DNA of 64,000 bases from a virus. Both the position numbers and the translations under genes were made by a program. The number at the start of each line of letters is the position of its first letter. Position 1 is the first letter of the stretch. Of this stretch, positions 1 to 34,043 are shown one piece after another. The stretch covers positions 1-64,000 of IMG/VR virus record IMGVR_UViG_3300025276_000029; one strand, given 5' to 3'. Under the pieces are notes generated by a model that made no database searches, was not told where the DNA came from, and was given only the letters and a program-made list of their open reading frames with translations.

Positions 1-181
1 ACTTTATCAATTCATTACCAGGTGCTTCTTTGGAAAATTCTTCGTCACTAATAAATGACCATATTTCTTCACCAACTTTTCTTTTATAAAAAATTAAACC
101 ATCTATATATCTTACTTGATACTCGTGTTTTTCGTTTTTACTTACAGCTTCTTTTAGTAGCTTTTTAATTAAGTGTTTCAT
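1..181 (-). CDS. Hypothetical late protein with IKKLL targeting-like N-terminus (partial)
   Basis: Only the first 60 codons are in the window; the rest lies beyond base 1. The ATG is at 179-181. The protein opens with MKHLIKKLLKEAVSKN, the same basic amphipathic helix ending in L-x-E-[AG] that starts several neighbouring but unrelated proteins. I infer that this segment is a capsid-targeting propeptide cut after the Glu. The part after it (HEYQVRYIDGLIFYKRK, then EEIWSFISDEEF) looks like a small beta-rich domain that I do not recognise. The gene is co-oriented with and directly downstream of the 186-440 gene. Confidence 0.75.
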   Translation of the reverse strand, partial: MKHLIKKLLKEAVSKNEKHEYQVRYIDGLIFYKRKVGEEIWSFISDEEFSKEAPGNELIK

Positions 182-185
182 TTAT

Positions 186-440
186 TTAAATTTTTACTTT
201 TTCGTATTTTTTTATCTTTTGCCTTTTAACTACTTTATTCCTCAACCTTTGAAACCTAGTCATTTCTTTTGAGAATATAACCTCGTCTATCTTAAAGAAT
301 ATTAGTGAACCTATTAAGTTGGCAATTAATGCTGTTACCCAAAAGTTATCTATACCATACCTTGTCAATATAAAAGGTATTATTGCTAATATTGGTGTGC
401 TTAGTTGCCATCTGAACATGTATTTTACCAGCTTTTTCAT
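186..440 (-). CDS. Small two-helix membrane protein
   Basis: 84 residues. It begins MKKLVKYMFRWQLSTPILA and has two hydrophobic stretches (about residues 13-27 and 34-50) followed by a strongly basic tail (RFQRLRNKVVKRQKIKK). The expected topology is a hairpin in the inner membrane with a cytoplasmic, possibly DNA- or lipid-contacting tail. The gene is in the same operon as the flanking late genes, with only a few bases between them. I know of no functional assignment. A holin-like or membrane-anchoring role is possible, but nothing in the sequence shows it. Confidence 0.6.
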   Translation of the reverse strand: MKKLVKYMFRWQLSTPILAIIPFILTRYGIDNFWVTALIANLIGSLIFFKIDEVIFSKEMTRFQRLRNKVVKRQKIKKYEKVKI

Positions 441-445
441 ATTTA

Positions 446-1036
446 TTAATCTAATCTATGTTCAATATAGTTTTTTATTGTTCTGTAATCTAAACCACTA
501 AGCTTGTCATACCCCATTTCTTTAAATTTAGTATCTATCTCTTCCTTTGAAAGACCTTTAAGTGATATAGCTAATTTATCAACTAACTGTCTATATAAGT
601 CTTCTATTACTATTACTGGCATTGTTTCACAACCTAATTTCATAGCCGCTAAAGCACGATGCCTACCTTCTTGGTCTGATTCACCTTCTCTATAGTAACC
701 GATAGGAAACTTACTTCCAGATTCCATAGCTTCTGCATACTTATCAACATTATCCCAGTTAACGTGTGCTGTTGCATCTTCATAACTTAAATTACCAAAA
801 CCCCTAGCTATTGCGTAAATGTATTGTTTAGGACTTATATACTTTAGTGTTTGTTTTTTTAACTTTTCTAACATATGATATACTGGATGGTCAAAACCAC
901 CGAATCTTTCCAATGATTCAAAGTCAAAATACTTACAACAATCACAATTAAAGTCTGGACCTTCTTTGATAAAGTATTCATCAATCATTCTTGACTTTAA
1001 ACCTTCATTTAATAACTTCTTTATAAACTTCTTCAT
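446..1036 (-). CDS. ParB/Srx-fold-like protein with capsid-targeting-like N-terminus
   Basis: 196 residues. The first 13, MKKFIKKLLNEGL, match the recurring basic helix plus L-x-E-G site. A short Cys cluster, CDCC, follows at 31-34. The core around 113-146 contains EGRHRALAAMKLG and then TMPVIVIED. This is the pattern of the ParB/sulfiredoxin-like superfamily (the ParB form is D-G-x-x-R-x-x-A-x-x-x-L-G-x-x-x-V-P), whose members bind or hydrolyse nucleotides or nick DNA. The C-terminal 45 residues are helical. The gene abuts the next one (start at 1036, upstream stop at 1039). A nuclease- or nucleotide-binding role is inferred from the fold pattern only. The N-terminal helix suggests that it is packaged in the head and delivered with the DNA. 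Confidence 0.7.
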   Translation of the reverse strand: MKKFIKKLLNEGLKSRMIDEYFIKEGPDFNCDCCKYFDFESLERFGGFDHPVYHMLEKLKKQTLKYISPKQYIYAIARGFGNLSYEDATAHVNWDNVDKYAEAMESGSKFPIGYYREGESDQEGRHRALAAMKLGCETMPVIVIEDLYRQLVDKLAISLKGLSKEEIDTKFKEMGYDKLSGLDYRTIKNYIEHRLD

Positions 1037-1038
1037 AA

Positions 1039-2190
1039 TTAGTGAATTAATAGGAATGTTTTTTGAACATCCATTCTTTGTGCACCTATATCGGTATCGC
1101 CAGTTGGTAATACAATAACATCGTATTGGAACTTCTCACCTTCTTCTGATGGTAATTCAGATTGGTACTTAAGTCTATCCACAGATACATTGTATGCTTT
1201 TGCTACTAATTGTCTAAGTGTTTCTTTACCACCTTCATCAAATACTGGTAGACCATCTTCACCCTTAACTACGTGTGGACCTTTCCATTTGAATACTTTC
1301 TTAAATAACACCTTTGGCACAATATCTGAATACTTAACCTTTTCAATATCTACTTGAGCTATTTCCTTAGGTGCAGAACCCTTAGAAAAGTTCATGATGA
1401 ACTCATCACTACCTAAGTTAACAAATTTAGCTTGCTTAGTATATGCGTATGACTTAACCTTATAACCGTCTTCTATTAAATCTTTAGTTACTCTTTGAGC
1501 TATTTCGAAATACTTCTTACTGAAGAAATCCCCAGCATCATTCCATCTAATTACTAGTTGGTCAACACTTCCACTTCTTCTACCTTGCCTCTTTAGTTTA
1601 ACAGCTAATGGTTCTAGTTCGTCCATTATCATGTTGTAGTATTCTTCAGGGTCATTCCATAGTAGGTTAAGTCTTCTAATTAACTTAAGTATCTTACCAT
1701 CATTCATTCCGTAGAACCCCTTTCTTGCATAACAAACTAGTTGACATGCACCAGCACCTGGGCAAGTATTAATATGTTTAAATTGTTTTTCACCTTCATC
1801 ATAAATAATACCAGAGATTGCTGGTAGTCCAGTGTTCACTGTGTATTGAGATGCACCTACATCACTCTTCTCCATCTTAGGGTTCTTGTCGAATATAACC
1901 TTTGGTGATGTTGTGATAAGTGTCTTGAATTTATCAACGTCAAGCCCACCTTCTTTATTTATAACTGATTGTATTTGTTTCTTGTGATATATAATGTCCT
2001 TAACACCTCGCTTAGTTCTGTCCTTAGCTGCAGTGTTAATTCTATTTAATTCCTTAGTCATGTCATCGGCTAACGCTTGTGGTGTTACACATTTTGTCTT
2101 AGCGTCTGGGTGGTCTTCAGCACCTTCATTTAATTCTTTGTTCTTGTAAACACTAATTAACGATTCGTTTAGTAATTTTATTATGCTCAT
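1039..2190 (-). CDS. GP88-like (rolling-circle-replication-associated-like) protein
   Basis: 383 residues. It starts MSIIKLLNESL, a shortened form of the shared targeting helix, and a second L-x-E-G site (ELNEGAED) lies at 19-26. The central region has a Cys triad, C143, C149 and C153, in NTCPGAGACQLVCYARKG, followed by VIRWNDAGDFFSKKYFEI near 213-230. This combination resembles the phage 'gene product 88' family, sometimes labelled rolling-circle-replication-associated, whose biochemical role is not settled. A TATTTATA box lies only 3 nt before the ATG. The likely position is first gene of a late transcript continuing into the 446 and 186 genes. The function beyond the family resemblance is unknown. 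Confidence 0.7.
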   Translation of the reverse strand: MSIIKLLNESLISVYKNKELNEGAEDHPDAKTKCVTPQALADDMTKELNRINTAAKDRTKRGVKDIIYHKKQIQSVINKEGGLDVDKFKTLITTSPKVIFDKNPKMEKSDVGASQYTVNTGLPAISGIIYDEGEKQFKHINTCPGAGACQLVCYARKGFYGMNDGKILKLIRRLNLLWNDPEEYYNMIMDELEPLAVKLKRQGRRSGSVDQLVIRWNDAGDFFSKKYFEIAQRVTKDLIEDGYKVKSYAYTKQAKFVNLGSDEFIMNFSKGSAPKEIAQVDIEKVKYSDIVPKVLFKKVFKWKGPHVVKGEDGLPVFDEGGKETLRQLVAKAYNVSVDRLKYQSELPSEEGEKFQYDVIVLPTGDTDIGAQRMDVQKTFLLIH

Positions 2191-2193
2191 ATC

Positions 2194-2201
2194 TATAAAT
2201 A
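2194..2201 (-). promoter_or_regulatory. Late-type promoter box TATTTATA
   Basis: TATTTATA on the coding strand, 3 nt before the ATG at 2190. It is one of about a dozen exact copies placed just upstream of late or virion-type genes. If it is a -10/-7 element, the mRNA would be nearly leaderless. Confidence 0.5.
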
Positions 2202-2204
2202 TCT

Positions 2205-2984
2205 TTAATCTAAGGAAACGGACTTATCATATGCATCTGTAAGCATATCATCAATATCTTCCATTATGTCGTTTCTTCTAAGTAGTTTAAATACTATGTT
2301 CTCATTAGAGAATTCACCATCTGAATCGAGACCACTTTGTCTCATTGCTTTTATTTTATCCTTAAGCTTCTCAAGCATCTTAACAATATCTTCATCATCA
2401 CATTTTTTGATTTCATTAACTGTCTTGATTATAGTATTATATTTCTTTGTTATTGTTTCCTTGTCAATATCAGCATCAACCTTATTAGGTTCCACAACCC
2501 ACTTATTATTTGTAATTGAATAAACTCCTGTTGAGTGATGTGGTTGGTCTTCTGGTTGTAGATACAATTCTACTTCAAAATCCTTAATTTTAATGTCGTG
2601 CTTCAGGTTCCAAGCTCTAGTCTTAACATCTAGTAAGTCTTTAACCATAGTCTTATCCTTGCCTAAGAATTTCATATCAAATATCATATGAATGTCAGCG
2701 TCAGAATACTTTGACCAATTAAAGTTAGCTAGACTACCTGTAAGTGTTATATTCATAAGTGGAGCTTCTAATTCCAATCCTTTCCAATAATCTGTGGCGA
2801 TTGTTTTAAGAGCTTCTAAGACGTCAGGCTTCATCGTGTTGTTACTTTCCCATATTTCAGGATTAAGTGTCTCATTTATCTTAAAAGTGGAGAAATCAAG
2901 ACTACTTGTAACTTCACCAAGTAACTTTGTGAAGTTATTTTCCTCAAGCCCCTCTCTTAGTAATTTTTTAATTATGTTTTTCAT
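2205..2984 (-). CDS. Pol-beta-type nucleotidyltransferase-like protein with targeting-like N-terminus
   Basis: 259 residues from the ATG at 2984. I chose this start because it exposes MKNIIKKLLREGLEEN, the conserved helix plus L-x-E-G site; a longer reading exists upstream. The motif TGSLANFNWSKYSDADIHM at 82-100 is the classical nucleotidyltransferase signature G-S-x(n)-S-D-x-D. D95 and D97 would be metal ligands, and the acidic pair in DFEVELYLQ (135-143) supplies the third carboxylate. Such enzymes add nucleotides to RNA, proteins or small molecules; MNT-like and CCA-adding enzymes belong here. The substrate is unknown. Given the N-terminal signal and the neighbours, an enzyme injected with the genome, analogous in role (not in fold) to T4 Alt, is a reasonable inference. 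Confidence 0.72.
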   Translation of the reverse strand: MKNIIKKLLREGLEENNFTKLLGEVTSSLDFSTFKINETLNPEIWESNNTMKPDVLEALKTIATDYWKGLELEAPLMNITLTGSLANFNWSKYSDADIHMIFDMKFLGKDKTMVKDLLDVKTRAWNLKHDIKIKDFEVELYLQPEDQPHHSTGVYSITNNKWVVEPNKVDADIDKETITKKYNTIIKTVNEIKKCDDEDIVKMLEKLKDKIKAMRQSGLDSDGEFSNENIVFKLLRRNDIMEDIDDMLTDAYDKSVSLD

Positions 2985-3021
2985 TATTAAACTTTTGTTT
3001 TGTACCTTTATATTACTTGAG

Positions 3022-4392
3022 TTATATGTTATCAATTATAAAATCTAAAGTAGCGTCCTTCCCTTTCATATCATTAAAATAGCTAGAAGAGATATATTCG
3101 TTTTTTAAATTGTTTTGATTACTGTATGCCTCTTTTTCCCAAGGAAGGTTTTTGTAATTATCGTAGTTTTTTTGTGCTTTTTTATAATCTTTTACTGAAA
3201 CCTCTGTATCATCTTTCCATAGTATAGATTTCCAATCTTCGGATGGTCTAAGTTCACCATTTGTTATTTGTTTAACATGTGTTAATTCGTGTACCAATGC
3301 ACCTATTATCATTCTATAACCTTGGTCTGGATTATAATGTAATGTGAATTTACCTTTGTTCAAAGATGCATCACTAAGTACAACATCACCGATTTGTGTG
3401 TTAGAAGACTTTTTCTTTACTACTATTTTATTAGGTTTGAATTTTAATTTATCTTGCATAAATTCAATAACAGAATCAATTAAAAGTTTTTCATATTTTT
3501 TAATTTCAAGACCTTCTCTTATTAGTTTTTTAATTAAACGTTTAGTTTTAGTAGGTTTACTAAAACTTTCCTCTATATCTGAACTATCATCTTTGTTAAA
3601 GTTCCAAACTCCTGAAAAACCTGAAAAGTAATAAGTTGTGTTTTTAAGTGTTTCCACTACGAATTTAATTCCATTAAATATTTTACGCCCCCAACTTATA
3701 AATGCACCTATACCAGTAACACCGTTTAGTAAACTTCCTAACCCAGTTACTAATGTTTTTTTTAAACCGTCGAATATGTTATCATCCAATAGATTTGTTA
3801 AAAAATCCTTACTCATTTCTGCTATCGGTGTTGTTAAAATATTTAAACCACCTTCACCAATTTTATCTATTACGTATTTTATAGATAAGGCCATACCAGT
3901 AAGACTTACAGCTGTTTTCCACCCACCATAACCTTTTATTTTTATGAAACTATCTTCAAAAAATTTTATTACTTTAGTTATACCTTTGGCAATTTTATCC
4001 AGACCAAGCTTTTCTGCAGATTCTTTTACATTTTTTAAGAATTCTTCTATTTTTTCTTTCCCTTTATTAACAATTTTAACTTCAAGAGATTTAACCCAAT
4101 TTTCAATATTACCTGGGGTACTTACCGCTTCCTTAAATTTTTTCATCAACAGCATAAGGTCCTTAGGGAATGATTTTATATCATCCCAAAATCCTTCCAT
4201 TAATAGATATTCCTCGATAACTAATCTTTTTTCTTCTACACTACTATTTTCGTTAATATACCCACTAATACCTAATACTTTAGTTTTATATTCATAATCA
4301 AATATATTTGGCATTCCCTCACTTAAATAAGGATTAAGTCTAGTTATTAATCCATCATTAAGTGCTAAGTGATTTATTATTTCTTTATTCAT
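3022..4392 (-). CDS. Putative processed polyprotein: membrane-active N-terminal part plus zincin metallopeptidase
   Basis: 456 residues. The C-terminal third has HELTH at 368-372, the HExxH zinc motif, and a plausible third ligand Glu in WEKEAYSN (about 418-425), so it is a gluzincin-like peptidase domain. It is preceded at 285-294 by RLIKKLIREG, the same helix plus cleavage signal that starts other proteins in this window, here internal. Two more [L]-x-E-G sites lie near the N-terminus (LSEG 23-26, LMEG 64-67). Residues 90-270 hold amphipathic and hydrophobic helices. I infer a precursor cut by the prohead protease into a helical and membrane-seeking piece and a free peptidase. A TATTTATA box lies upstream at 4434-4441. 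The substrate is unknown. Confidence 0.7.
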   Translation of the reverse strand: MNKEIINHLALNDGLITRLNPYLSEGMPNIFDYEYKTKVLGISGYINENSSVEEKRLVIEEYLLMEGFWDDIKSFPKDLMLLMKKFKEAVSTPGNIENWVKSLEVKIVNKGKEKIEEFLKNVKESAEKLGLDKIAKGITKVIKFFEDSFIKIKGYGGWKTAVSLTGMALSIKYVIDKIGEGGLNILTTPIAEMSKDFLTNLLDDNIFDGLKKTLVTGLGSLLNGVTGIGAFISWGRKIFNGIKFVVETLKNTTYYFSGFSGVWNFNKDDSSDIEESFSKPTKTKRLIKKLIREGLEIKKYEKLLIDSVIEFMQDKLKFKPNKIVVKKKSSNTQIGDVVLSDASLNKGKFTLHYNPDQGYRMIIGALVHELTHVKQITNGELRPSEDWKSILWKDDTEVSVKDYKKAQKNYDNYKNLPWEKEAYSNQNNLKNEYISSSYFNDMKGKDATLDFIIDNI

Positions 4393-4433
4393 TTTTATAC
4401 TTATTTATTCATTTATATATATCAGTATCTATA

Positions 4434-4441
4434 TATAAATA
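4434..4441 (-). promoter_or_regulatory. Late-type promoter box TATTTATA
   Basis: Exact TATTTATA on the coding strand, 41 nt upstream of the ATG at 4392. The leader is AT-only and lies downstream of the 4465-4488 terminator, so this box probably starts the late operon running to base 1. Confidence 0.5.
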
Positions 4442-4464
4442 TAAAGAAATTTAATTAAAAAACA

Positions 4465-4488
4465 AACCCCGTAATCAATTACAGGGTT
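4465..4488 (-). terminator. Rho-independent terminator
   Basis: The inverted repeat AACCCTGTAAT / ATTACGGGGTT is followed on the minus strand by TGTTTTTTAATT. It ends the transcript of the dNMP-kinase gene. Confidence 0.8.
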
Positions 4489-4518
4489 ATTTTAATTATT
4501 ATGGTATTTAATTTAGTA

Positions 4519-5040
4519 TTATATAGTTCCAGTCAGTAATTTACCTAATAATACACTCTTATTTGTGAACTCATCATATGTCCCATTATTGTCTAAAATA
4601 ATGTGAGCGCAAGACTTATCTATATTAAAAGATTTTTTATCTTCAAGTGGTAATCTATCTGAAGCATCAACCCATATTATTAAATCAAATAACTTATTTT
4701 TTAAACACTCATATATTTCTTCCCTATCCCTCATACCTACATAACAGTCTGTAGTCTTTAGGATATCTTTAGCTAATCTAGATTTATCACCCTTATTGTA
4801 ATCACAAATCATTTCGTACCACTCTTGTCTGTGATTAACTCTATCTTCAAAGCATTCTTCTGGTGTATTATACCCGTACTTTAATTTTAATTCATCGTAA
4901 ATGAAGATATCAGCACAAGCTTGTGATGATGATTTGAATTTAAGGTTAAACTTATCGCTTAGTATTTCAGCTAATGAATCTTTTCCGTGGCGTTTATGAC
5001 CTACGATTAAAAGTGATGGGAATTTTTTATCTTTACTCAT
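4519..5040 (-). CDS. Deoxynucleoside monophosphate kinase-like P-loop protein
   Basis: 173 residues. It has a P-loop, GHKRHGKDSL at 14-23, of the G-x4-GK-[DST] type used by phage dNMP kinases such as T4 gp1. An NMP-binding-like region (SSSQACADIF), a basic lid region (GMRDREEIYEC) and a beta strand LIIWVDAS follow. The expected job is phosphorylation of dNMPs to dNDPs for phage DNA synthesis, in line with the ribonucleotide reductase at the other end of the window. It is shorter than T4 gp1 but similar in plan to many myovirus homologues. Two strong hairpins with U-runs lie directly before the start, so expression depends on readthrough or a promoter that I do not see. Confidence 0.75.
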   Translation of the reverse strand: MSKDKKFPSLLIVGHKRHGKDSLAEILSDKFNLKFKSSSQACADIFIYDELKLKYGYNTPEECFEDRVNHRQEWYEMICDYNKGDKSRLAKDILKTTDCYVGMRDREEIYECLKNKLFDLIIWVDASDRLPLEDKKSFNIDKSCAHIILDNNGTYDEFTNKSVLLGKLLTGTI

Positions 5041-5059
5041 ATTTAAATTTTTAAATAAA

Positions 5060-5084
5060 AATCCCCAGCTTATTACTGGGGATT
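5060..5084 (-). terminator. Rho-independent terminator directly before the kinase gene
   Basis: The hairpin AATCCCCAGT / GCTGGGGATT is followed by TTTTATTTAA on the minus strand. It ends only about 20 nt before the kinase ATG. Confidence 0.75.
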
Positions 5085-5100
5085 AATTATATTGTATTAA

Positions 5101-5127
5101 AAAAACTAGTTTCTGAAACTAGTTTTT
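5101..5127. terminator. Near-perfect palindromic bidirectional terminator
   Basis: AAAAACTAGTTTC and GAAACTAGTTTTT are separated by a single base, giving A- and T-runs at both ends. It can end transcripts from either strand. On the minus strand it would close the short transcript started at about 5171. Confidence 0.8.
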
Positions 5128-5172
5128 ACATTTTGCGTGTGTGTTAATTGCTATACCCTTTCTTTAATACTA
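5101..5172 (-). ncRNA. Candidate small RNA or attenuated leader
   Basis: A strong host-type promoter (5178-5208) would start transcription near 5171. The only thing before the very strong terminator at 5101-5127 is about 45 nt without a usable reading frame. The product would be an RNA of about 70 nt. A second terminator (5060-5084) and then the kinase gene follow, so this could instead be an attenuator leader for that gene. I see no known riboswitch or tRNA fold in it. Confidence 0.45.
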
Positions 5173-5177
5173 TAAAA

Positions 5178-5208
5178 CAAATATACATATATTTTTAATA
5201 CATGTCAA
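5178..5208 (-). promoter_or_regulatory. Host-type (Bacteroidetes) promoter TTGACA-N17-TATATTTG
   Basis: The -33 element TTGACA is at 5203-5208 and the -7 element TATATTTG at 5178-5185, with a 17-nt spacer. This fits the Bacteroidetes consensus TTG / TAnnTTTG. Confidence 0.75.
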
Positions 5209-5219
5209 CTTTTTAATTA

Positions 5220-5643: not shown

Positions 5644-5673
5644 ATAGTTATTATTTTTAGTATAATTATAAAA

Positions 5674-5681
5674 CAAATATA
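5674..5681 (-). promoter_or_regulatory. -7 box TATATTTG for the bS21 gene
   Basis: An exact Bacteroidetes -7 element 30 nt before the bS21 ATG. The -33 region is AT-rich but lacks a clear TTG. Confidence 0.5.
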
Positions 5682-5877: not shown

Positions 5878-5881
5878 AAAA

Positions 5882-18316: not shown

Positions 18317-20131
18317 TTATCCCCAGTCTTCATATTCCTCTTCACCTCTATATTTAATCTTACCATTACCTAATGGTTCAAAGTAGTACTCCATTTGTTC
18401 ATCACTATCAATAAGTATAATTCCAAAATTTGGGTCCTTCTTTAACTTACGTGCTTTATCAGCACTTTTATAAACTTTTAAATCTTTTATTGTTGAGATT
18501 TGTGATATTTCATGCCCAACTTCTTCGTTGTCATAAAAACTCTCAGTAACTTCTTCTTCAATATCATCATCTTCATGCATACCTTCAAATACTTCGTCAA
18601 ATCTATCCTTATACAAGTCTCTTTCTATTTCAGATTCTTCGTCTGGTTTCATGTTAGCAAGTTGTTTTTCTATCTCATCATTACCTGCTTGCCTTAAGGC
18701 ATGGTTTCTTGGTTTACCTTTCGACTCACCCTTAGTTAAGTGGCTACCTTTTAGCCCTCTCTCACCACCCATTCCTGACCTAGCAGTTCCAGGTTTTATT
18801 GCGTTAGCTTCATCAACACCTAATATGGCAGCTTGTAATTCGTCAGGTAGTTCATCTTGACCTCCTGTTAATTTATCATTATCATTATATTCATCTGTGA
18901 ATGTAGCTTCGTCCACTTTAAACCCTTTTTGGTCTTCAGCACCTTCATCTCCTTCCGCTGCACCACCAGAATCAATAGCTTTATCAATTTCCTTCACTAG
19001 CATCTCTAGTTTCATTATAACAGCTGGTGAGTATGCGTTTGATTTCCCAGCTAGTTTTTTTATGATATCTAAAAGTTGAGTAGTAACTATCCTTTCTTTT
19101 GGTTTAAAGTCAGCTTTGGATATTGTATTTCCGTATTCCTTAAACTTTTTACCAATTGCACCTTTTGAAAGTGCCCCTAATTCTTCTTCTTCTTCTTTTA
19201 TATGAACTTCATTTTGGTTCATGATGTCAAAGTCGTTTTTGGTGATTTTACCATCATTGTTTAAATCAATATGTTTTTTTTGTTTATCAGTTAACTCTTT
19301 TTCATTAAGTGAGTTGTTTGATTCGTAGCGTCTTGTAGCTTCAACATATGTGCGATGAATCTTCTTAGCTGTGTCGATATCAATATTATCCCTTTCTAGT
19401 ATATCTTTTCTGAATATAACACCCATCTCCTCTCTAAATATATGCTCGAAGTGGCTTCCTAACCATTTTACCGCCTTTTTGGATTCTTTATATTCATCAT
19501 GTTCTGCAGGTGAGTGGCGTTTAGTGATAGAACCTTGGTCTCTTTCTAAATCACTTCTATGAGTAAAATTATCTAGAGCATCTTCATACGGTGCTTTTGC
19601 TTTCGCCATTTTAGTCATACTATATTTAAATGTATCTTCGAACCAATCATACGCACCAAGTTCTTTTGCAACCCTACCTGCATCACCAAGAGAGTGTCTT
19701 AATATTGGTTCCCATTTAACCGCCCATGAAGAGTTATCTTCCTCGTCATCATCATAACCATTTTTCTTCTCTAGTTCTGCATCTTGGTCGTATTCCGTTT
19801 GATACTCCTTAATAAGACCCTTTGATTTACCAAGAATATCATTAAACTTCTTATTTTCATCAAGTCTTGCGGCACCCTTAACTGTACCAAGTGTATCTTG
19901 TGATTTGAAACCCATTAAGTGTTTCATCTTTCGCATATCTTCATTAATTTGAGACTTGTTGCCAGATGTAAGTGCTGTAGCTTCGTTTATAGATGATTCC
20001 CACTTAAGTCTATAAGTTTCGTTACCATCAGTCATTTCAAACTCGTGACCATCAGTCTTGTAGGACTCTGGAATAAGTTTCTTTGCATTGTCTATCCCGT
20101 TGAATGGGTTCTTGAATTTGATTCTCTTCAT
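18317..20131 (-). CDS. Acidic virion-core-like protein, paralogue A
   Basis: 604 residues. Residues 1-108 form a module (MKRIKFKNPFNGI, IPESYK, MTDGNETYRLKWESS, MRKMKHLMGF, LGTVKGAARLDEN) shared with the 20169 gene product. Further on are a Glu/Asp-rich helical middle, an EF-hand loop DLNNDGKITKNDFD near 290, Gly/Ser-rich linkers, a very acidic region and a terminal small domain (FGIILIDSDEQMEYYFEPLG). Several [LIV]-x-E-[GASN] sites (SINEAT, LDEN, VDEA) could be prohead-protease cuts. I infer a head-core or internal protein. It is not recognisable as a known scaffold. Confidence 0.65.
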   Translation of the reverse strand: MKRIKFKNPFNGIDNAKKLIPESYKTDGHEFEMTDGNETYRLKWESSINEATALTSGNKSQINEDMRKMKHLMGFKSQDTLGTVKGAARLDENKKFNDILGKSKGLIKEYQTEYDQDAELEKKNGYDDDEEDNSSWAVKWEPILRHSLGDAGRVAKELGAYDWFEDTFKYSMTKMAKAKAPYEDALDNFTHRSDLERDQGSITKRHSPAEHDEYKESKKAVKWLGSHFEHIFREEMGVIFRKDILERDNIDIDTAKKIHRTYVEATRRYESNNSLNEKELTDKQKKHIDLNNDGKITKNDFDIMNQNEVHIKEEEEELGALSKGAIGKKFKEYGNTISKADFKPKERIVTTQLLDIIKKLAGKSNAYSPAVIMKLEMLVKEIDKAIDSGGAAEGDEGAEDQKGFKVDEATFTDEYNDNDKLTGGQDELPDELQAAILGVDEANAIKPGTARSGMGGERGLKGSHLTKGESKGKPRNHALRQAGNDEIEKQLANMKPDEESEIERDLYKDRFDEVFEGMHEDDDIEEEVTESFYDNEEVGHEISQISTIKDLKVYKSADKARKLKKDPNFGIILIDSDEQMEYYFEPLGNGKIKYRGEEEYEDWG

Positions 20132-20168
20132 CGTTTGTATTTATTTTTAGTTTTTTACACTTAATTTA

Positions 20169-21620
20169 TTAATTAGTCCATTCTGGGAATTTTTTACCCA
20201 TCACTATACTAAAATAGTCGTAATAATCGGTAATTAGTTGATTGAATCTATCGTGTTCTTCTTGGGACTCTACGCTGGTCTCTCCGTCATTCATAATCGT
20301 ATCTAACATATCGTCTAACATATCAGATGGGTCCATACCGTACTTAGTCGCAACCGCTGTAACTCGTTTTAAAAAGTTATTAGGTAATGATGCGATTACC
20401 GACTTAATAAAGGCCATGTCATCTTCACTTGGTAGTGCCATTTTGGGTTTTTTAGACTTTTTTTTAGCTTCGTCTAAATCTAAGTCACCTGGAAATTCTA
20501 AGTTTGGGTCTATATCTTCTAATTCTCTATCATCATATTCACCTCTTTTTGGGTTACGAAGACTATTAGGTGCTTGATGTGCATCAGGGAAAGATACGTT
20601 GTCGTCGTAATATTTGTTTTCACCATCATCATAATCATCAAATCTACCATCTTTATCTGGGTTAGTTACAATATCATCCCAACTACTTTTAAATCCTTGC
20701 ATACCTCCAGCAACTGGACCTTCACTTAATAAGTTCTTAGTCTTGTTAAGTACATCGTTAAATCTTGCATTTTCATCAAGTCTTGCAGAACCCTTAACAG
20801 TACCAAGAGTTTCTTTAGAAGAATAACCCATAAGGTGCTTCATCTTTTGCATGTCTTCACTCATAAGATTCTTATCTGAAGCTTTTAGGACAACCGCTCT
20901 ACCTTCTGTTAAGCTTCCTTCCCATTTGATTTCATATTTCTCATTACCATCAGTCATGTGAAATTGTTTTCCATTAACCTTATAAGATTCTGGAATAACA
21001 TTAAGTGCGTTTTCTATACCCTTAAATTCTTTTTTAAATACAAGTCTTTTCATTTTACTTTTTTTGTTAATTTTATTTTCTGATAATGCTATTGATTTAG
21101 AATCTTCATTACTCATTGAGCTATCCTTAATATCAGCACCACTAACTGTAGTTTTTGGACCTCTTACAGTTTCAGCGTCATCTCTCTTTTTCTTAGATGC
21201 TTTAATAGTCTTTACAAGATTCTCACCGAACTTTTCTCCAGTGAATCCAGCTTGGTCTGCTGTAACTACATTTGCGTAGTCTGGGGAGTTACCCATTCTT
21301 GCTGAACCAGCTATAGCTTCCTCAGCTCTTTTTTTGAATATTTCACTAGGTTCGTTCCCGTACTCAGCCATTTCTTGACCATTCATAATTTCCATTTGGT
21401 CATGGTACTCTTTTTCTTTGCTAGTATATTCGTTTTTAACAGGTTTGGAGTCGTCTTTCAATGGCTTGTCGTAGTCTTTCATTTGTTTAGCAACATCTTT
21501 ATTTGCAGCCTTATTTGTTTTTCCAGACTCATCTCGTATCTTTTTAGTTTTAGTTAAACCTGGCGCCTCGCTCTCTTCCTTTAACACTATTAAGTGTTTT
21601 TTGATTATATCTTTGTTCAT
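20169..21620 (-). CDS. Acidic virion-core-like protein, paralogue B (fusion)
   Basis: 483 residues. The first 190 are Lys/Asp/Glu-rich and low in order (MNKDIIKKHLIVLKEESEAP...). Then an internal Met at the position of base 21053 begins the same module as paralogue A (MKRLVFKKEFKGI, IPESYK, MTDGNEKYEIKWEGS, MQKMKHLMGY, LGTVKGSARLDEN). The remainder is acidic, with a C-terminal helical domain ending VMGKKFPEWTN. Candidate processing sites are LTEGR and LLSEGP. The retained internal start codon suggests that a module like paralogue A was fused behind another gene. A TATTTATA box precedes the gene. Confidence 0.65.
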   Translation of the reverse strand: MNKDIIKKHLIVLKEESEAPGLTKTKKIRDESGKTNKAANKDVAKQMKDYDKPLKDDSKPVKNEYTSKEKEYHDQMEIMNGQEMAEYGNEPSEIFKKRAEEAIAGSARMGNSPDYANVVTADQAGFTGEKFGENLVKTIKASKKKRDDAETVRGPKTTVSGADIKDSSMSNEDSKSIALSENKINKKSKMKRLVFKKEFKGIENALNVIPESYKVNGKQFHMTDGNEKYEIKWEGSLTEGRAVVLKASDKNLMSEDMQKMKHLMGYSSKETLGTVKGSARLDENARFNDVLNKTKNLLSEGPVAGGMQGFKSSWDDIVTNPDKDGRFDDYDDGENKYYDDNVSFPDAHQAPNSLRNPKRGEYDDRELEDIDPNLEFPGDLDLDEAKKKSKKPKMALPSEDDMAFIKSVIASLPNNFLKRVTAVATKYGMDPSDMLDDMLDTIMNDGETSVESQEEHDRFNQLITDYYDYFSIVMGKKFPEWTN

Positions 21621-21667: not shown

Positions 21668-23392
21668 TTATTTACTTATTTCAATTGCATCAGGCCCTTG
21701 GTCACAATACGGGAACTCAGAACACTTTTCTTTTACTTTAACTTCTTTACCTCCAGCTATTGTAGGTTTTTTCCATGTTGGACCTGTACCTTTTGGTGTG
21801 TCACCAGTCATGTCTGGATTAGAAAAACCTGGTGTATCATATTGCCCAGAATTTTGAATCCCTTCTTCATTAATTTCGATAGCTTCACCTGATTTTTCTT
21901 TTTCTATCTTTTCGTACATTCTTTTTATATAAGACAATATGTTATAAACACCCTTAACGTGTTCTTTGTATTGGTTATATACTTCAGGCTCATGTGCGTT
22001 ATCAGCGTATTTAATTAGATTCTCAATCATCTTTGGAAACTTGCGTTTAAGTGATGGTAAAGTTTTATTAATTACATTATCTTCTGTATCGTCATGATTA
22101 ACTACAGAGGCTGCTAATTCATTTAGCTCAGTTTCATTTTTTAATATTTCATCTGGGGCTACTGAATCCATGTTTATAATTTCTAATGCACCGACAACCG
22201 CCTTTCGTAATGGATTATCTACCTTTATTTCGACATCGTCACTGATTAATGAAGTCACAACATTTGACCCTTCCCGATGTATAGGTTCAAGTAAAGGGGC
22301 AACAACAGGACCTGAACTACCACCAGTACTAGCGGAGCCAGCTACAGTTGCTTCATCAACATCTTGTTCATTTTTAAACATACCTGGGTCACTGGTTGCT
22401 AAGTTAGCCATACCATTTTTAAATTCATCCCTAGCTTTAAGGTATACTGGGTTTATTATGTCTACATCTAAAAATCTATTTTCAGGTGTTAATTTAAATA
22501 TTGGCTCTTCATTAAATTTCTTTTTAAATACATCTACGTACCCAAACACCCACTTATTATCTACTCTTAAGTATTCATGTTCACTCCCTGTAATGTCATC
22601 ATGACTCATGATTATTCTAGTTGCGTCCATTCTCCCAATACCAGGGAATTTAACTTTTTTAACGCTTGTTGGTTCGTCTAGTGATGTCTCTTTTAGTTGA
22701 GATATTGGTGCGTATCTAAGTATATCAAGCCCTACGATACCCTCTGGAGTTTCTACTTCTTCTTCTCTAAGTGCTTCTTGCCCTAGTGTTTTGTAAAATC
22801 TCCAAGCTTCTTTATATTTACCTTTTTCGTAATATAATCTAATTGTATTATTTGTTACTTTATTGATATCAACATTTTTATCAAAAATAGTTTTGAACGT
22901 ATCTTCTATGGTTTCATGACTATTTGATAGGTCAGCGTCAAGAGCCTCCTCCATGGTATTCATAGCATTGTATTCGTTACCACCTTCATACATTTCGTGA
23001 AGACCCATAGATATTATTTCTTTTACTATGTTTTTATCACCTTTAAATTTTTCTTTAACTAGTCTTCCGTTGTTGATTAAACCAGAAACTTCCATTATTT
23101 TATGTAGTTTTTCATATACAAGTTCAGAACCTTCATTCATACCATATAATTCATTAATGAATTTTTCATATAGTTCTTCTAGTTTTATCTTTGTATTTTT
23201 AAATTCATTTCTAGAGTTACCCTTAAATGCGGTGTTAAATGAGTGGTCTACTGCTGATGGTCCTGCCCCTTCTACAAGTCTTTCTGACTCTATAATTCTG
23301 TTATACTGTTCTTTAGTTACCTTAAGAACTTTGGTTTTACCGAGCTCTTGTAACATGTTAGCCTGTTGCTCACTTATCCTTATCTTTTTCAT
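21668..23392 (-). CDS. Large acidic hypothetical protein, probable virion/core component
   Basis: 574 residues. It starts MKKIRISEQQANMLQELGKT with KEQYNRIIESERLVEGAGPS after it; LVEG would fit the processing-site pattern. The middle is helical, rich in Glu and Met (MGLHEMYEGGNEYNAMNTME). A beta-rich domain around 235-330 has SLDEPTSVKKVKFPGIGRMD. Low-complexity Gly/Ser linkers follow, and the C-terminus is Pro/Gly-rich (NPDMTGDTPKGTGPTW) with two Cys. It is co-transcribed with 23394 upstream (1-nt gap). No family is recognised. Position and composition suggest an internal head protein. Confidence 0.6.
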   Translation of the reverse strand: MKKIRISEQQANMLQELGKTKVLKVTKEQYNRIIESERLVEGAGPSAVDHSFNTAFKGNSRNEFKNTKIKLEELYEKFINELYGMNEGSELVYEKLHKIMEVSGLINNGRLVKEKFKGDKNIVKEIISMGLHEMYEGGNEYNAMNTMEEALDADLSNSHETIEDTFKTIFDKNVDINKVTNNTIRLYYEKGKYKEAWRFYKTLGQEALREEEVETPEGIVGLDILRYAPISQLKETSLDEPTSVKKVKFPGIGRMDATRIIMSHDDITGSEHEYLRVDNKWVFGYVDVFKKKFNEEPIFKLTPENRFLDVDIINPVYLKARDEFKNGMANLATSDPGMFKNEQDVDEATVAGSASTGGSSGPVVAPLLEPIHREGSNVVTSLISDDVEIKVDNPLRKAVVGALEIINMDSVAPDEILKNETELNELAASVVNHDDTEDNVINKTLPSLKRKFPKMIENLIKYADNAHEPEVYNQYKEHVKGVYNILSYIKRMYEKIEKEKSGEAIEINEEGIQNSGQYDTPGFSNPDMTGDTPKGTGPTWKKPTIAGGKEVKVKEKCSEFPYCDQGPDAIEISK

Positions 23393-23393
23393 A

Positions 23394-23648
23394 TTAGTTA
23401 CCCTTATTTGATAGCATGGTTTTCCATACTGACCTCTTTACCCAAAGAGCCTTATATAATTGTGTTAGAACATTTTTGGTAATATCTACAACCTTATCTT
23501 CTAACGCTTTTTCATTCTTTATTCTATCTTTAACTATTTTTTCAACCTTAGACTTGAATTCGCTGGAATTCATGTATTTACTGATTTCACTTTTAGCGTC
23601 GCTCTTAGTGAATTCTTCATTAAGTCTTTTTTTGATTATGTCTTTCAT
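23394..23648 (-). CDS. Small protein with targeting-like N-terminus
   Basis: 84 residues from ATG 23648: MKDIIKKRLNEEFTKSDAKS, a variant of the recurring helix with L-x-E. The remainder is a basic helical body (SEFKSKVEKIVKDRIKNEKA) ending WVKRSVWKTMLSNKGN. A TATTTATA box lies 15 nt before the start. It is probably an internal head protein or peptide precursor. It has no enzymatic motif. Confidence 0.6.
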   Translation of the reverse strand: MKDIIKKRLNEEFTKSDAKSEISKYMNSSEFKSKVEKIVKDRIKNEKALEDKVVDITKNVLTQLYKALWVKRSVWKTMLSNKGN

Positions 23649-27122: not shown

Positions 27123-27968
27123 CTATTCATTAATTATATCAAATAAATCACTAGCGTTAAATCTAACCCTTCTGATAGCTTTTTCTTTTATTTGTCTAAT
27201 TCTTTCCTTAGTTAGGTTATACTTGTCACCAATAGCTTCAAGCGTCATTCCATTATACTCCTTATTAATACCAAAATAGCATTCAAGAATTTCTTTTTCC
27301 CTGCTGTCTAGTTTTGAAAGTATGTTGTTAATTTCTATTTTGATTCTTTCGTCAGTTGAAAATATCTCTTCTTCTATGTTAGAATTAGCATCTGCTATAA
27401 GACAATATAGTTCGTCACCGTCTTCATTTATAACGTCATTTAATGATGTGCACTGAGGTGTTATTAAGTGTTCTATCGCATCACCGTTAGTATCTAATAA
27501 ATCACCATACACTGGAAGTCTTTCGTTGTCTAATTCAAATCTTTCAATTTCTTTCCTTAGGTCTGAAACTTTTTTAATGACATTGGTAGGTAGTCTAATC
27601 ATTCTAGCATTGTCATTAAGACTCTTAATTATTGACTCTTTAATCCACCAAACCGCATAGGATATAAACTTAAAGCCTCTAGTGTGGTCAAAACGAGTTG
27701 CTGCCTTAACCAGACCTAAATTTCCTTCACTTATAAGGTCACTTAATGAAAGACCTTGGCCTTGATAGTCTTTTGCTATTGATATTACAAATTTTAAATT
27801 TGCACCAACTAGTTTATTTACTGCTGAATCATCACCGTTTTTAATCTTTATCGCCAAATCTACCTCGTCTTCAGGTGTTATTAATTCACTTTTTCTTACA
27901 TCTTTAAAATAATTAGATATTGTTGCGTCGTCTGAGGTGTTTGCAAATTTTTTCTTGTTCATATTCAT
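27123..27968 (-). CDS. RpoD-like sigma factor of Bacteroidetes type
   Basis: 281 residues. Region 1.2/2 begins near ITPEDEVDLAIKIKNGDDSA and continues through NLKFVISIAKDYQGQGLSLS, DLISEGNLGLVKAATRFDHT and RGFKFISYAVWWIKESI. Region 3 is shorter and diverged. Region 4 has the helix-turn-helix MTLEAIGDKYNLTKERIRQI with KEKAIRRVR. It has the size and order of the short Bacteroidetes housekeeping sigma, but the -10-reading and -35-reading parts differ enough to change specificity. T4-like phages normally use the small gp55 as late sigma; here a full host-type factor probably does this. The likely target is the TATTTATA box class, one copy of which precedes this gene. Confidence 0.93.
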   Translation of the reverse strand: MNMNKKKFANTSDDATISNYFKDVRKSELITPEDEVDLAIKIKNGDDSAVNKLVGANLKFVISIAKDYQGQGLSLSDLISEGNLGLVKAATRFDHTRGFKFISYAVWWIKESIIKSLNDNARMIRLPTNVIKKVSDLRKEIERFELDNERLPVYGDLLDTNGDAIEHLITPQCTSLNDVINEDGDELYCLIADANSNIEEEIFSTDERIKIEINNILSKLDSREKEILECYFGINKEYNGMTLEAIGDKYNLTKERIRQIKEKAIRRVRFNASDLFDIINE

Positions 27969-28589: not shown

Positions 28590-28620
28590 AATTTATTATT
28601 TTTTTTTTAATATTATAACG

Positions 28621-28628
28621 CAAATATA
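28621..28628 (-). promoter_or_regulatory. -7 box TATATTTG for the 28047-28589 gene
   Basis: Exact -7 element with a poor -33 region, 31 nt before the ATG at 28589. Confidence 0.45.
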
Positions 28629-28660
28629 CTATTTTTTTGTTAATAAAGCTACCGTACTTG

Positions 28661-31042: not shown

Positions 31043-31572
31043 AAATCAATTGTGTTTGAACCTAAATAACCTCTTTTACCTCCGTATATATCGTCGTCTT
31101 CTTTCTTTGGCTTACTCTTTTCCGTTTCTAATTTTTCTTTTAAGATGCCTATCTCTTTTTCTTTTTCGTCTAGATTACGTCTAAATTCGTCTAATTTTTC
31201 GTCTAGATTACGTCTAAATTCGTCTAATTTTTCAAAATCAGATAGACTTAATTTAAGCGTTTCTTTAACTTTTGTTAATTCTTTTTTTAATTCGATATTA
31301 GCTTCATCGTCAGTAACAAATATCTCCTTCTCTACTTCAACAATCTTTTCTACTTCAATAAACTTTTCTACCTGAACCTCTTTAATCACTTCCACTTCCT
31401 TAATTACTTCCACCTCTTTAACCTCCACAGGTTTTTCCCATGGTGTAGAGCCGAATTTCTCAGATGTAAAACCATTCGTTAACATCTTAACAATAAAACC
31501 ATTAAGGTCGGTGATATCGTTAAGCCTGCAGTAGTCCCAGATTTCGTCTTTTATATTCTTTGGTAATTCCAT
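31018..31572 (-). CDS. Coiled-coil protein with internal repeats, between gp46 and gp47
   Basis: 184 residues. Helical start (MELPKNIKDEIWDYCRLNDI), then a Val/Glu/Lys array of the form (EVxVIK)n from about 48 to 80. Then comes a coiled coil with a perfect duplication of LDEFRRNLDEK, encoded by a 33-bp tandem repeat. It ends YGGKRGYLGSNTIDLWNNKK. It overlaps the gp46 start by 25 nt, so the two are translationally coupled. Proteins with such EVxVxK arrays occur next to gp46/47 in several large phages. They may be clamp- or SSB-binding adaptors, which is inference. Confidence 0.65.
   Translation of the reverse strand: MELPKNIKDEIWDYCRLNDITDLNGFIVKMLTNGFTSEKFGSTPWEKPVEVKEVEVIKEVEVIKEVQVEKFIEVEKIVEVEKEIFVTDDEANIELKKELTKVKETLKLSLSDFEKLDEFRRNLDEKLDEFRRNLDEKEKEIGILKEKLETEKSKPKKEDDDIYGGKRGYLGSNTIDLWNNKKQD
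31168..31233. repeat. Perfect 33-bp tandem duplication
   Basis: Two identical adjacent 33-bp units (31168-31200 and 31201-31233) inside the 31018-31572 gene. They add exactly 11 residues of coiled coil (one and a half heptads plus) and keep the frame. Confidence 0.95.
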
Positions 31573-31573
31573 T

Positions 31574-32389
31574 TTATATATTTGTTAATATTTCAGAACC
31601 ATTATCAATGTCGTTTATCGAATCTATTTTAAATTGGTAAAAACCGTAATCGGTTTCGACATCATGTTCTTCATATGTCTTAGTTTCAACGTCCCACCAT
31701 AAGAAACCATGCTTACCAATCTTCTCGCCAAAATTCTGTTGAATAAGTGAACTAGGCATTACGATAGGTATACCTTTAAATCTCAAGTCCTGACGTTTAT
31801 GTATGTCACCACACATGACAATATCATTACCTTCGAATATATCAAGACTATGTCCATGTTCAATTTCATAACCTACATCAGTTGTTGAGCCAATAAGTGG
31901 TCCGTGGAATAATCCGATATATGTCTTATCATCTCCATGGTCAATCCTAGCATCTTCAATATTTGGTCTGTCACTACCCGTTATGATGGAATAGACATCC
32001 CACACAACGTTATTATCAACATAGCACCCAGTTTCAGTATAGTATTGTATCTTTAACTCAGGAAGTAATTGAACCATAGGTGTGATACTATCAACCCTAT
32101 CCTTATTGTTCTCAAGTAAGTCATGATTACCTGGAATAATTACAACTGGTGCTATTTTATCTAGTTTCCTAAGAAACCAAGTACCAAGTATAAGTAACTC
32201 ATTAGAAATGGTTATCTTCTGGTGTACGTAATCTCCTGCTATAACGATTCTAACCTCTTCTCTATTGTATGGTTCCACTAGTACCCTTATCTGCTTTAAG
32301 AACGTCTTAAAAGCCGCCCCATATTCCTCATGCATTCTGAATGTTCTGATGTGGATATCAGCTATATGTATTATTTTCTTAATTTCCAT
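31574..32389 (-). CDS. SbcD/Mre11-like nuclease (T4 gp47-like)
   Basis: 271 residues. The metallophosphoesterase metal motifs are in order: DIHIR (D11, H13), GDYVHQK near 53, GNHDLLEN near 88, HGPL near 157 and CGDIHKRQ near 197. This is the catalytic half of the Mre11 fold without the long C-terminal region of bacterial SbcD, as in T4 gp47. With gp46 it processes double-strand ends and recombination intermediates. It lies two bases from the repeat protein and four from the PD-(D/E)XK nuclease gene, in a tight recombination operon. Confidence 0.93.
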   Translation of the reverse strand: MEIKKIIHIADIHIRTFRMHEEYGAAFKTFLKQIRVLVEPYNREEVRIVIAGDYVHQKITISNELLILGTWFLRKLDKIAPVVIIPGNHDLLENNKDRVDSITPMVQLLPELKIQYYTETGCYVDNNVVWDVYSIITGSDRPNIEDARIDHGDDKTYIGLFHGPLIGSTTDVGYEIEHGHSLDIFEGNDIVMCGDIHKRQDLRFKGIPIVMPSSLIQQNFGEKIGKHGFLWWDVETKTYEEHDVETDYGFYQFKIDSINDIDNGSEILTNI

Positions 32390-32392
32390 AAT

Positions 32393-33343
32393 TTATCCTT
32401 TTAATAGTTTATCTAAATCTTCTATTCTTTTTTTCTCTCTTTCAATATCACTATACTTCTTAGCCATAACTTCCTTTATTCTTGGTAGTGGAGGCATTGT
32501 TAATACTGTATCGCTAAATGACTTTGGTATTCTGTATTCTGTAAAAACACCTTCAGCTGTTAAATGAACAATAATCCCACCCAACACTTTTATGTTCTCA
32601 TACTTAGTACCCTTAAGCATGTCTAAAAATAATCTAATATATAATGGCAGTTGAATCATATAGTGAGACAATGCTGTATCCATGTAGTCCGTGAACGGCG
32701 CAAGCATTGGTTCTGTATATGCGTGTACTTGAAAGTTTTTTGGTTTATTAGTTTTCCAATCACTAATAACTACACCTAAATCACCATTCTTATCAAACAT
32801 AATCCACATCTTATCTGGTTGGCCAGTATATTCTAGGTCAGAACTACCTAAGACCATTTCAGTATCTAGCAATACTGCACCTCTCCTATGCATTTGCCTG
32901 ATAAAGTTATGGCCAGCGTCAATCATACGGTTACCATCAGTAGTTTGTTGTTCATCACACTCAAAGTGTGGTTTCCTGACTTCCTTGTACGAACCATATT
33001 CACTAAGTAAATCCATTTCAAGTAAATAATGAACCCTAGACCCCTTACTATTTGCGTAATCGGCAGTACCCGTCCATTCTCTAAGTAATTCATCTTGCTT
33101 TACGATGTCTCCGTTACACATGTCTAGTGATTTATCAAGCGCTGGAAAGTCATTATAAAATTGCTTAATTACTGTAGATACACTAGGGAAGTCGGTGCGT
33201 ATCTTCCCGTTATTATCTCTAATATAATAAATGTGGTCATCTTCAACGAATGAAAGTTCAAGCTCTTTTTGTTTGTCGTCTATTAAGTCTCTAATTTCCT
33301 GACCAATTCTTAATAGTTCTTTTTTTGTTTCTTTTTTATCCAC
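32393..33343 (-). CDS. PD-(D/E)XK nuclease (Cas4/RecB-type exonuclease fold)
   Basis: 316 residues. FPSVSTVIKQFYNDF and GSRVHYLLEMDLL (the conserved His region) precede the active-site block: Glu in DTEMVLG, YTGQPDKMW with the Asp, and VVISDWKTNKP with D-x-K. This is the motif order of RecB-family and Cas4-like exonucleases used in phage recombination and DNA degradation. The last 60 residues are basic and helical. It starts the recombination operon; a TTGAAA-N17-TATATTCG promoter lies just upstream. It may also be responsible for host DNA breakdown. Confidence 0.82.
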   Translation of the reverse strand: MDKKETKKELLRIGQEIRDLIDDKQKELELSFVEDDHIYYIRDNNGKIRTDFPSVSTVIKQFYNDFPALDKSLDMCNGDIVKQDELLREWTGTADYANSKGSRVHYLLEMDLLSEYGSYKEVRKPHFECDEQQTTDGNRMIDAGHNFIRQMHRRGAVLLDTEMVLGSSDLEYTGQPDKMWIMFDKNGDLGVVISDWKTNKPKNFQVHAYTEPMLAPFTDYMDTALSHYMIQLPLYIRLFLDMLKGTKYENIKVLGGIIVHLTAEGVFTEYRIPKSFSDTVLTMPPLPRIKEVMAKKYSDIEREKKRIEDLDKLLKG

Positions 33344-33359
33344 AAATGTTATTTAGTTG

Positions 33360-33390
33360 CGAATATAACTATTTTTTATGTAAATTTCAA
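33360..33390 (-). promoter_or_regulatory. Host-type promoter TTGAAA-N17-TATATTCG
   Basis: -33 element at 33385-33390, -7 element at 33360-33367 (one mismatch). It drives the recombination operon and is back-to-back with the plus-strand late box at 33392. Confidence 0.6.
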
Positions 33391-33391
33391 G

Positions 33392-33399
33392 TATTTATA
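33392..33399 (+). promoter_or_regulatory. Late-type promoter box TATTTATA (plus strand)
   Basis: Exact box, 8 nt before the ATG at 33408. It is important because it follows the orientation of the gene, not that of the genome. Confidence 0.6.
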
Positions 33400-33407
33400 G
33401 TAAAGAT

Positions 33408-34043
33408 ATGAAAATTTTAATAAAAAAATTACTTAGAGAAGGATTGTTGGATGAAGCTGCGTTAACGACTTCGAGCCTTCCTGAAGGTACAGGGTTGTTT
33501 GCTAAAGAGCAGAATAGTAATGAGTTAGTATTATTTAACCCTAGTACGAAACAAGCATACGCAATTATTAATTTTGTATATAACCCTAGTCAGTCAGACT
33601 TTCATTATGTCATAGCAGTTGCCGCTGAAAAGGGTTACGGACCACTTATTTATGAGTTAGCTATGATGTATGTTGCGAGTAAACATAATAACCTGCTAAC
33701 ACCAACTAGAGGTGGTGAAATTAGAAGTAAAGCTTTTAACGTTTGGGAGAAAATGTATAATAGAGAAGATGTTATTAAAAAAACATTACAACCGACTGAT
33801 AAAAACTTTAACTATGATATTTTATTTCCAACTAGCGAAGTTTCGAACGATGAAAGACAAGAAGCTTTTGACGAGTTGTCGGGTAATGAAAAAAAGGATT
33901 TAATTGTATTTAACTCAGGATATACTAAAGAACCAAGTAAAGGGTATTATGACTTATTGAGAATTGCACAAGAATACGGTGAAGATGTTTATAATTTAGC
34001 TTCTGAAGCTGGTGATAATTTATGGTCAATATCTTATGATTAA
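33408..34043 (+). CDS. GNAT-like protein with capsid-targeting-like N-terminus
   Basis: 211 residues. It begins MKILIKKLLREGLLDEAALT, the strongest form of the shared helix plus L-x-E-G site. The region HYVIAVAAEKGYGPLIYELA at about 67-86, followed by MMYVASKHNNLLTPTRGGEI and SKAFNVWEKMYNR, looks like the acetyl-CoA-binding strand-loop-helix of GNAT acetyltransferases, with [RQ]-x-x-G-x-[GA] replaced by EKGYGP. The C-terminus adds about 80 helical residues. It has its own late box and sits reversed within the replication genes (4-nt tail-to-tail overlap with the primase gene). It is a mobile late cassette, and its substrate is unknown. Confidence 0.7.
   Translation: MKILIKKLLREGLLDEAALTTSSLPEGTGLFAKEQNSNELVLFNPSTKQAYAIINFVYNPSQSDFHYVIAVAAEKGYGPLIYELAMMYVASKHNNLLTPTRGGEIRSKAFNVWEKMYNREDVIKKTLQPTDKNFNYDILFPTSEVSNDERQEAFDELSGNEKKDLIVFNSGYTKEPSKGYYDLLRIAQEYGEDVYNLASEAGDNLWSISYD

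Follow-up and report, generated by a model that had tools for sequence, protein, structure and literature searches.

Why do unrelated proteins of one phage begin with nearly the same short helix? The question is raised by the window analysed here, bases 1–64000 of a 71,552-base IMG/VR virus record (IMGVR_UViG_3300025276_000029), in which genes for very different proteins carry an N-terminal leader with the consensus MKx[LIF]IKKLLRE/[GNSA] (the slash marks the proposed cut). From sequence comparisons, we consider it very probable that the leader is a lineage-specific T4-type capsid-targeting sequence (CTS), removed by the phage's own gp21 protease. A sequence-only reading of the same DNA had proposed capsid targeting with gp21-type removal, and the idea is supported by the linkage to the protease, the site in the capsid protein, the clustering of the genes, the conserved Glu and the cargo. 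Most injected phage proteins lack any recognised domain and are therefore hard to find. If the proposal is true, the injected effectors of these jumbo phages could be listed by a simple pattern search.

Distribution and conservation of the leader

By protein comparison the contig of the window is collinear with three long contigs (306–369 kb), and it is therefore a fragment of a T4-like jumbo phage. These sister contigs are:

G013, 368.5 kb, 53 of 78 window-contig genes matched
G002, 306.5 kb, 51 of 78 window-contig genes matched
G027, 353 kb, 49 of 78 window-contig genes matched

The closest isolate found by its recombinase was Flavobacterium phage immuto (38% identity), for which gp20, a prohead protease and gp23 are annotated.

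All seven leader sequences listed in the sequence-only reading are present in the window, on the minus strand except for that of 33408–34043. The leaders and their carriers (lengths in amino acids, aa) are:

149..181, minus strand: leader MKHLIKKLLKEA, MKHLIKKLLKE/A, seen directly in the sequence; open reading frame cut by the contig end
1004..1036, minus strand: leader MKKFIKKLLNEG, MKKFIKKLLNE/G, seen in the sequence and shared with a homologue (L076)
446..1036, minus strand: ParB-like protein with a CDCC motif (PHROG ParB-like, 4e-5)
2164..2190, minus strand: short leader MSIIKLLNE/S, from the sequence and homologues
1039..2190, minus strand: GP88 family protein (PF17338, E 1e-20)
2952..2984, minus strand: leader MKNIIKKLLREG, MKNIIKKLLRE/G, from the sequence
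2205..2984, minus strand: nucleotidyltransferase-like protein (PF01909, E 0.008, below cut-off; phrog_36119, 2e-42)
3514..3537, minus strand: internal leader copy LIKKLIRE/G (context RLIKKLIREG), between the N-terminal region and the zincin-like domain of a 456-aa open reading frame
3022..4392, minus strand: this 456-aa protein, with a C-terminal metallopeptidase-like domain (HELTH motif; DUF6782 putative metallopeptidase, E 0.005, below cut-off)
23616..23648, minus strand: leader MKDIIKKRLNEE, MKDIIKKRLNE/E, from the sequence; [LI]-x-E aligned in the G002, G013 and G027 orthologues
23394..23648, minus strand: 84-aa conserved core protein with orthologues in the three sister jumbo phages
33408..33440, plus strand: leader MKILIKKLLREG, MKILIKKLLRE/G, from the sequence
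33408..34043, plus strand: protein with a GNAT-like acetyltransferase fold (AlphaFold and Foldseek)

Not all cargo names given in the sequence-only reading held equally well. GP88 is clear and ParB-like stands at the PHROG level; nucleotidyltransferase and zincin fall below the Pfam cut-offs, the HELTH motif speaking for the metallopeptidase. The name GNAT-like comes from the fold, since the AlphaFold model of 33408–34043 (pLDDT 78.5) gave weak Foldseek matches to acetyltransferases (E 0.002–0.05), which lend modest support to a GNAT fold.

The homologue of the ParB-like protein is 49% identical, keeps the leader and has an additional C-terminal region. The GP88 protein is 60% identical to its G027 counterpart, and GP88 proteins start with MSIIKLLNE/S in the window, MSIKSLLNE/S in G027 and MIKRLVRE/A in G023. 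The nucleotidyltransferase-like protein also has homologues in phages. For the 84-aa core protein the lysine helix drifts between orthologues, while [LI]-x-E keeps its register (KRLNE/E in the window and G027, KKINE/D, NYIRE/N). Diverged orthologues retain [LI]-x-E while the remaining leader residues change.

A degenerate DNA pattern for MKx[LIFVM]IKK[LF][LF]xE matched at least 119 IMG/VR stretches, nearly all of them at proper gene starts. The same pattern gave 11 matches in 257 Gb of GTDB bacterial and archaeal genomes, which is chance level. Three of the 11 were plausible long N-termini (permease-like, aminoacyl-tRNA-synthetase-like and one other), and with an added constraint on the residue after the cut (P1′) there were no GTDB matches.

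After removal of the leader, 121 leader proteins fell into 55 clusters, i.e., at least 55 families. In an alignment of 62 leader proteins the conserved columns were those of the leader only, with K2, I5, K6, K7, L8 and L9 at ≥90% and M1 and E11 invariant, although E11 had formed part of the selection for many of these proteins. A relaxed IMG/VR pattern without the Glu gave mostly a separate family (MKxxIKKLFGID) and spurious short open reading frames, so the Glu was examined on whole contigs. With position 11 left free, it was Glu in 43 of 44 N-terminal matches in 17 genomes, an effective independent sample nearer to 28 of 29, since each contig holds at least one pre-selected case. Over the first 30 positions of the proteins in these 17 genomes, the motif density was 40.7 per 100,000 residues compared with 0.83 inside proteins (49-fold), an excess that chance would not produce, and two of the five "internal" cases were misassigned starts (genes were called by a simple ATG-first method).

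The residues behind the Glu are also biased. Among 112 leaders, 84 have G, N, S or A as residue 12 (P1′), compared with 23% in the background, and 35 have a second LxE at residues 14–16 (background 1.9%). With the genomes pooled, even a loose LxE is seen at 5.7% of N-termini compared with ≈1.7% in protein interiors. As the codon choice varies synonymously, the conserved unit is the peptide.

Leader copies were also observed at the extreme C-terminus, e.g., SKAFIKNMLRENFK and KKLIKKLIRENLGF:

G010:14245-15879, C-terminal leader copy
G011:65926-67512, C-terminal leader copy
G011:50511-51719, C-terminal leader copy
G002:31957-32286, C-terminal leader copy

Two proteins of 528 and 544 aa have an LxE leader at both ends. 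T4 Alt is likewise processed at both ends.

The gp21 protease, the capsid site and gene position

All three sister contigs encode a gp21-type prohead protease (Peptidase_S77) and a gp23 capsid protein. Peptidase_S77 was found above the curated cut-off in 16 of 30 leader contigs and in 1 of 25 control contigs; the leader contigs were selected by the leader itself and several are related to one another, and the controls, fetched with a relaxed pattern, are smaller on average. Among contigs >90 kb the counts were 11/19 and 1/7, respectively. Every leader contig with a full-length gp23 (16/16) has gp21. For the other 14, gp23 is cut by the contig end in one (G018), is a weak fragment in another (G014) and is missing from 12, so that these 12 have no recognisable head module. 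Peptidase_S78, as an alternative protease, was not found in the leader contigs without gp21. The window's own contig is a fragment without head genes, and the gp21 gene of this phage would lie outside it.

The motifs GE[LS]xHP and G[VI]SSRG, in which T4 gp21 has its catalytic His and Ser, are conserved between these gp21 proteins and T4. When 16 capsid proteins and that of immuto were aligned with T4 gp23, all had LL[TS]E/[SAG] or a near variant (LLDE/A, LLNE/S, LVTE/T, LINE/A, MLTE/S, IVSE/A) at the column of residue 65, where T4 gp23 is cleaved as judged from the propeptide length (PMC9026906). The specificity of the protease, as read from this column, would fit the leader site. T4 gp24, which starts with MAKINELLRE/STT, has the same LLRE/S core as the leader and is cleaved by gp21 according to the T4 record; it differs from the leader proteins in being a shell protein and not a packaged passenger.

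Leader genes also lie close to the capsid gene. With 15 contigs pooled, 21 of 42 were ≤5.5 kb from it compared with 2.8 expected (Poisson P ~4e-12, a value that is optimistic because some contigs are close relatives), and the proximity was not significant in G013 or G026 taken singly. A homologue of the GNAT-like protein with the same leader lies ≈4.6 kb from the capsid gene in G013. In G017 two leader genes directly follow the capsid gene, and then comes a third gene starting with MKIGKIFNQLLKE/E. The portal-adjacent protein of the sister contigs starts with MQNFGKIKNTFNNLLVE/A or similar, and its position matches that of T4 gp67/gp68.

Proposed capsid targeting and its alternatives

We infer targeting and cleavage, with strong support, from the sequences, and packaging and injection by analogy with T4. 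The basic amphipathic helix MKx[LIF]IKKLL would, late in infection, attach to the prohead core as it assembles and draw its passenger inside. Once the shell has closed, the gp21-family protease would cleave L-L-R-E/[GNSA] behind its Glu and, in about one third of cases, also at a second LxE five residues further on. The passenger, now free, would stay in the head with the DNA, be ejected into the next host and there modify or protect. Both the binding to the prohead core and the action of the cargo in the host are likewise inferred.

The principle has a clear precedent. That a single CTS can be carried by many unrelated proteins is already established for the T-even phages (PMC3012670, PMC9026906), whose internal proteins (IP) include an injected anti-restriction protein and diverse defence proteins with only the CTS in common (PMC3012670), and a foreign protein has been packaged by fusion to the leader of IPIII (PMC9026906). 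Like the CTS of IPI, IPII, IPIII and Alt, an N-terminal propeptide of 10–19 residues on unrelated proteins that ends in [LI]-x-E, the leader occurs, in the sister phages and the leader contigs with a full gp23, together with a gp21-family protease and a gp23 capsid, and on passengers that include predicted host-modifying and anti-restriction proteins. Unlike the T4 propeptides, the helix IKKLLRE is basic and differs in sequence. There are also at least 55 passenger families here, the genes cluster beside the capsid gene, the phages are jumbo phages, about one third of leaders have a second LxE five residues on, and C-terminal or internal copies occur occasionally. The propeptides of phiKZ and SPN3US ejection proteins are similar in being cut C-terminal to Glu by a gp21-like protease at multiple sites per propeptide, but the phiKZ motif is S/A-x-E instead of LLRE (PMC9026906).

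Pfam domains on leader proteins include ART-PolyVal, GNAT families, GP88, ArdC-N, ParB_N and NUDIX, as well as a weak MPTase-PolyVal, a protein-kinase-like domain, pterin-4a dehydratase and a lysozyme-GNAT fusion. No leader was found on a recognised replication protein in the sets examined. These domains are largely those of proteins for which two surveys predict packaging and injection (PMC5512222, PMC9503650), and the recognisable cargo resembles packaged effectors. The polyvalent proteins and packaged ADP-ribosyltransferases of these surveys share ART-PolyVal, MPTase-PolyVal, ArdC-N, ParB-like and GNAT domains, a head-gene neighbourhood and predicted injection with the leader proteins. The latter show a visible targeting signal, whereas the cited sections of the surveys report none. 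Polyvalent proteins have two to fifteen different domains per polypeptide; most leader cargo has one recognisable domain or none, with few two-domain fusions (GNAT-ART, ArdC-MPTase), and we therefore class the leader proteins as related effectors and not as polyvalent proteins.

Two further passengers were noted. The leader of L027:4513-5697 is on a GNAT-lysozyme fusion, an unusual passenger, and the leader variant MKNFIKKFLEEA of L149:6872-8116 is on a protein with ArdC-N and zincin domains, a candidate anti-restriction protein.

The nature of the cargo bears on the best-surviving alternative, namely that the leader proteins, although packaged and cleaved, are only prohead core or structural proteins with a function within the head and are never injected as effectors. 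T4 gp67 and gp68 are precedents for such core proteins (PMC9026906), and every sister phage has kept the 84-aa core protein, as would be expected of a structural part. We still regard this as unlikely, since the recognisable cargo is mostly accessory and enzyme-like (ART-PolyVal, GNAT, ArdC-N, NUDIX), a class predicted to be injected (PMC5512222, PMC9503650).

A membrane anchor, the alternative offered in the sequence-only reading, would mean that late enzymes of the phage are kept by the helix at the inner membrane of the infected cell and are neither cleaved nor packaged. The helix is indeed short, basic and amphipathic, and residues 2–14 of the 33408–34043 model form a low-confidence helix. 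However, binding to a membrane does not call for a near-invariant Glu with a small residue behind it, diverged orthologues lose the lysines and retain [LI]-x-E (NYIRE/N, KKINE/D), and the identical site in the capsid protein and the link to gp21 would be left unexplained, which makes an anchor very improbable. As T4 proheads also start at the membrane, anchoring and capsid targeting are not fully exclusive.

Least credible is an expression or recombination cassette, in which an upstream TATTTAT and an A-rich start aiding translation would be conserved and copied with the leader between genes: TATTTAT is found 8–32 nt upstream of 25 of 47 leader genes (53%), often at exactly −11, compared with 12.5% of other genes, and the Leu9 codon CTT is over-used, which hints at copying at the DNA level, but codons at I5, L8, L9 and R10 vary synonymously while the amino acids are fixed, the element is absent from about half of the leaders, and the peptide also occurs in C-terminal and internal copies. 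The anchor and the cassette were both rejected as main explanations on these grounds.

Several observations weigh against capsid targeting as well. The 71.5-kb fragment carries neither the window's own gp21 nor its capsid gene, and half of the leader genes are far from head genes. No LxE start is seen in the nucleotidyltransferase orthologues of cyanophages and some huge phages, and some cargo has a metabolic or lytic look (pterin-4a dehydratase, NUDIX, the GNAT-lysozyme fusion). Proteomics of a leader-bearing phage was not found in the literature.

Capsid targeting may not be confined to this clade. Immuto has a different portable leader, FDLKKFLVE/N, on four proteins, and in Maribacter phage Colly_1 ≈8–10 proteins start with variants of xIK[ST]L[VI]E/S; T4-type prohead proteases are annotated in both. 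As each has its own leader, the [LI]-x-E cut seems, by inspection, to be common across lineages and the helix to be lineage-specific. A loose LxE excess at N-termini was not seen in Colly or immuto with a looser regular expression. The comparison suggests that every one of these T4-like lineages (the leader clade, immuto and Colly) has a leader of its own, built around a shared [LI]-x-E cut, and the capsid-targeting principle of T-even phages would then extend to phages far from Enterobacteria.

With less assurance, we think it somewhat probable that Bacteroidota-associated T4-like phages have a general protein-delivery system, in which a lineage-specific tandem-site leader, sometimes with C-terminal or internal copies, is placed on an open-ended pool of enzymes and forms a readable code for injected effectors. 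At least 55 families are marked by the leader, the majority of them without a function, with anti-restriction and ADP-ribosylating enzymes among the assigned ones. Our search of open-licence papers found none with IKKLLRE and none describing this signal. T-even phages already use this mechanism; what appears to be undescribed is the signal, with its clade, tandem cleavage sites and cargo range.

Neighbouring genes and genome context

Next to the gene of the 84-aa core protein there are further proteins with N-terminal modules or [LI]-x-E sites:

21668..23392, minus strand: 574-aa protein with a second type of N-terminal module (KIRISEQQ ... KVTKEQYNRIIES), from the sequence
18317..21620, minus strand: two acidic proteins of 604 and 483 aa with a common segment ending in [LI]-x-E

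The second portable module, M..K[LI]IITE[SN]Q[YLF]..., is often followed by [LI]-x-E and is found in the window (21668-23392), G026, G027, G028 and others. It is over-represented at N-termini (57 cases; 55 vs. 10 per 100,000 residues).

The two acidic proteins are candidates for multi-cleaved prohead core proteins. A direct search for relatives of the 604-aa protein gave weak matches only, and synteny was more productive. The adjacent proteins (18317-20131 and 20169-21620) have a segment of ≈110 residues in common and both match one single gene in sister phages, which suggests that the pair arose by a split or a duplication.

A Bacteroidota host is likely for the phage of the window, judging from its relatives and from published freshwater jumbo phages with predicted Bacteroidetes hosts (PMC9723584). 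A crude pattern search found no bS21 gene near the capsid gene that would link these phages to the bS21 jumbo phages (PMC9723584).

The ribonucleotide reductase genes (62404-63849, running past the window, and L002:807-1808) resemble those of immuto (59% and 54%) and are only 22–27% identical to those of the collinear sister phages, which suggests that they were replaced by transfer. From similarity and family knowledge, the remaining 7.5 kb of the record presumably encode ribonucleotide reductase, a DnaB-type helicase, a RecA/UvsX-like recombinase, and gp32-like and acidic proteins. In the 269-kb contig G026, two gp21 genes and two gp23 genes that differ from each other are spread over two head modules (31291-34976 and 233494-237947); the contig is an assembly chimera or else comes from a phage with two capsid sets.

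Finally, a GATATTTATA-like element was observed 10–30 nt upstream of many genes, sometimes after a terminator, and it is about fourfold commoner before leader genes (53%) than before the rest (12.5%). In the window it is found at 2202-2192, 23672-23662, 33392-33399, 39166, 50618, 61729 and other positions, and it is possibly a phage promoter that is read with the phage's own sigma factor (27123-27968).

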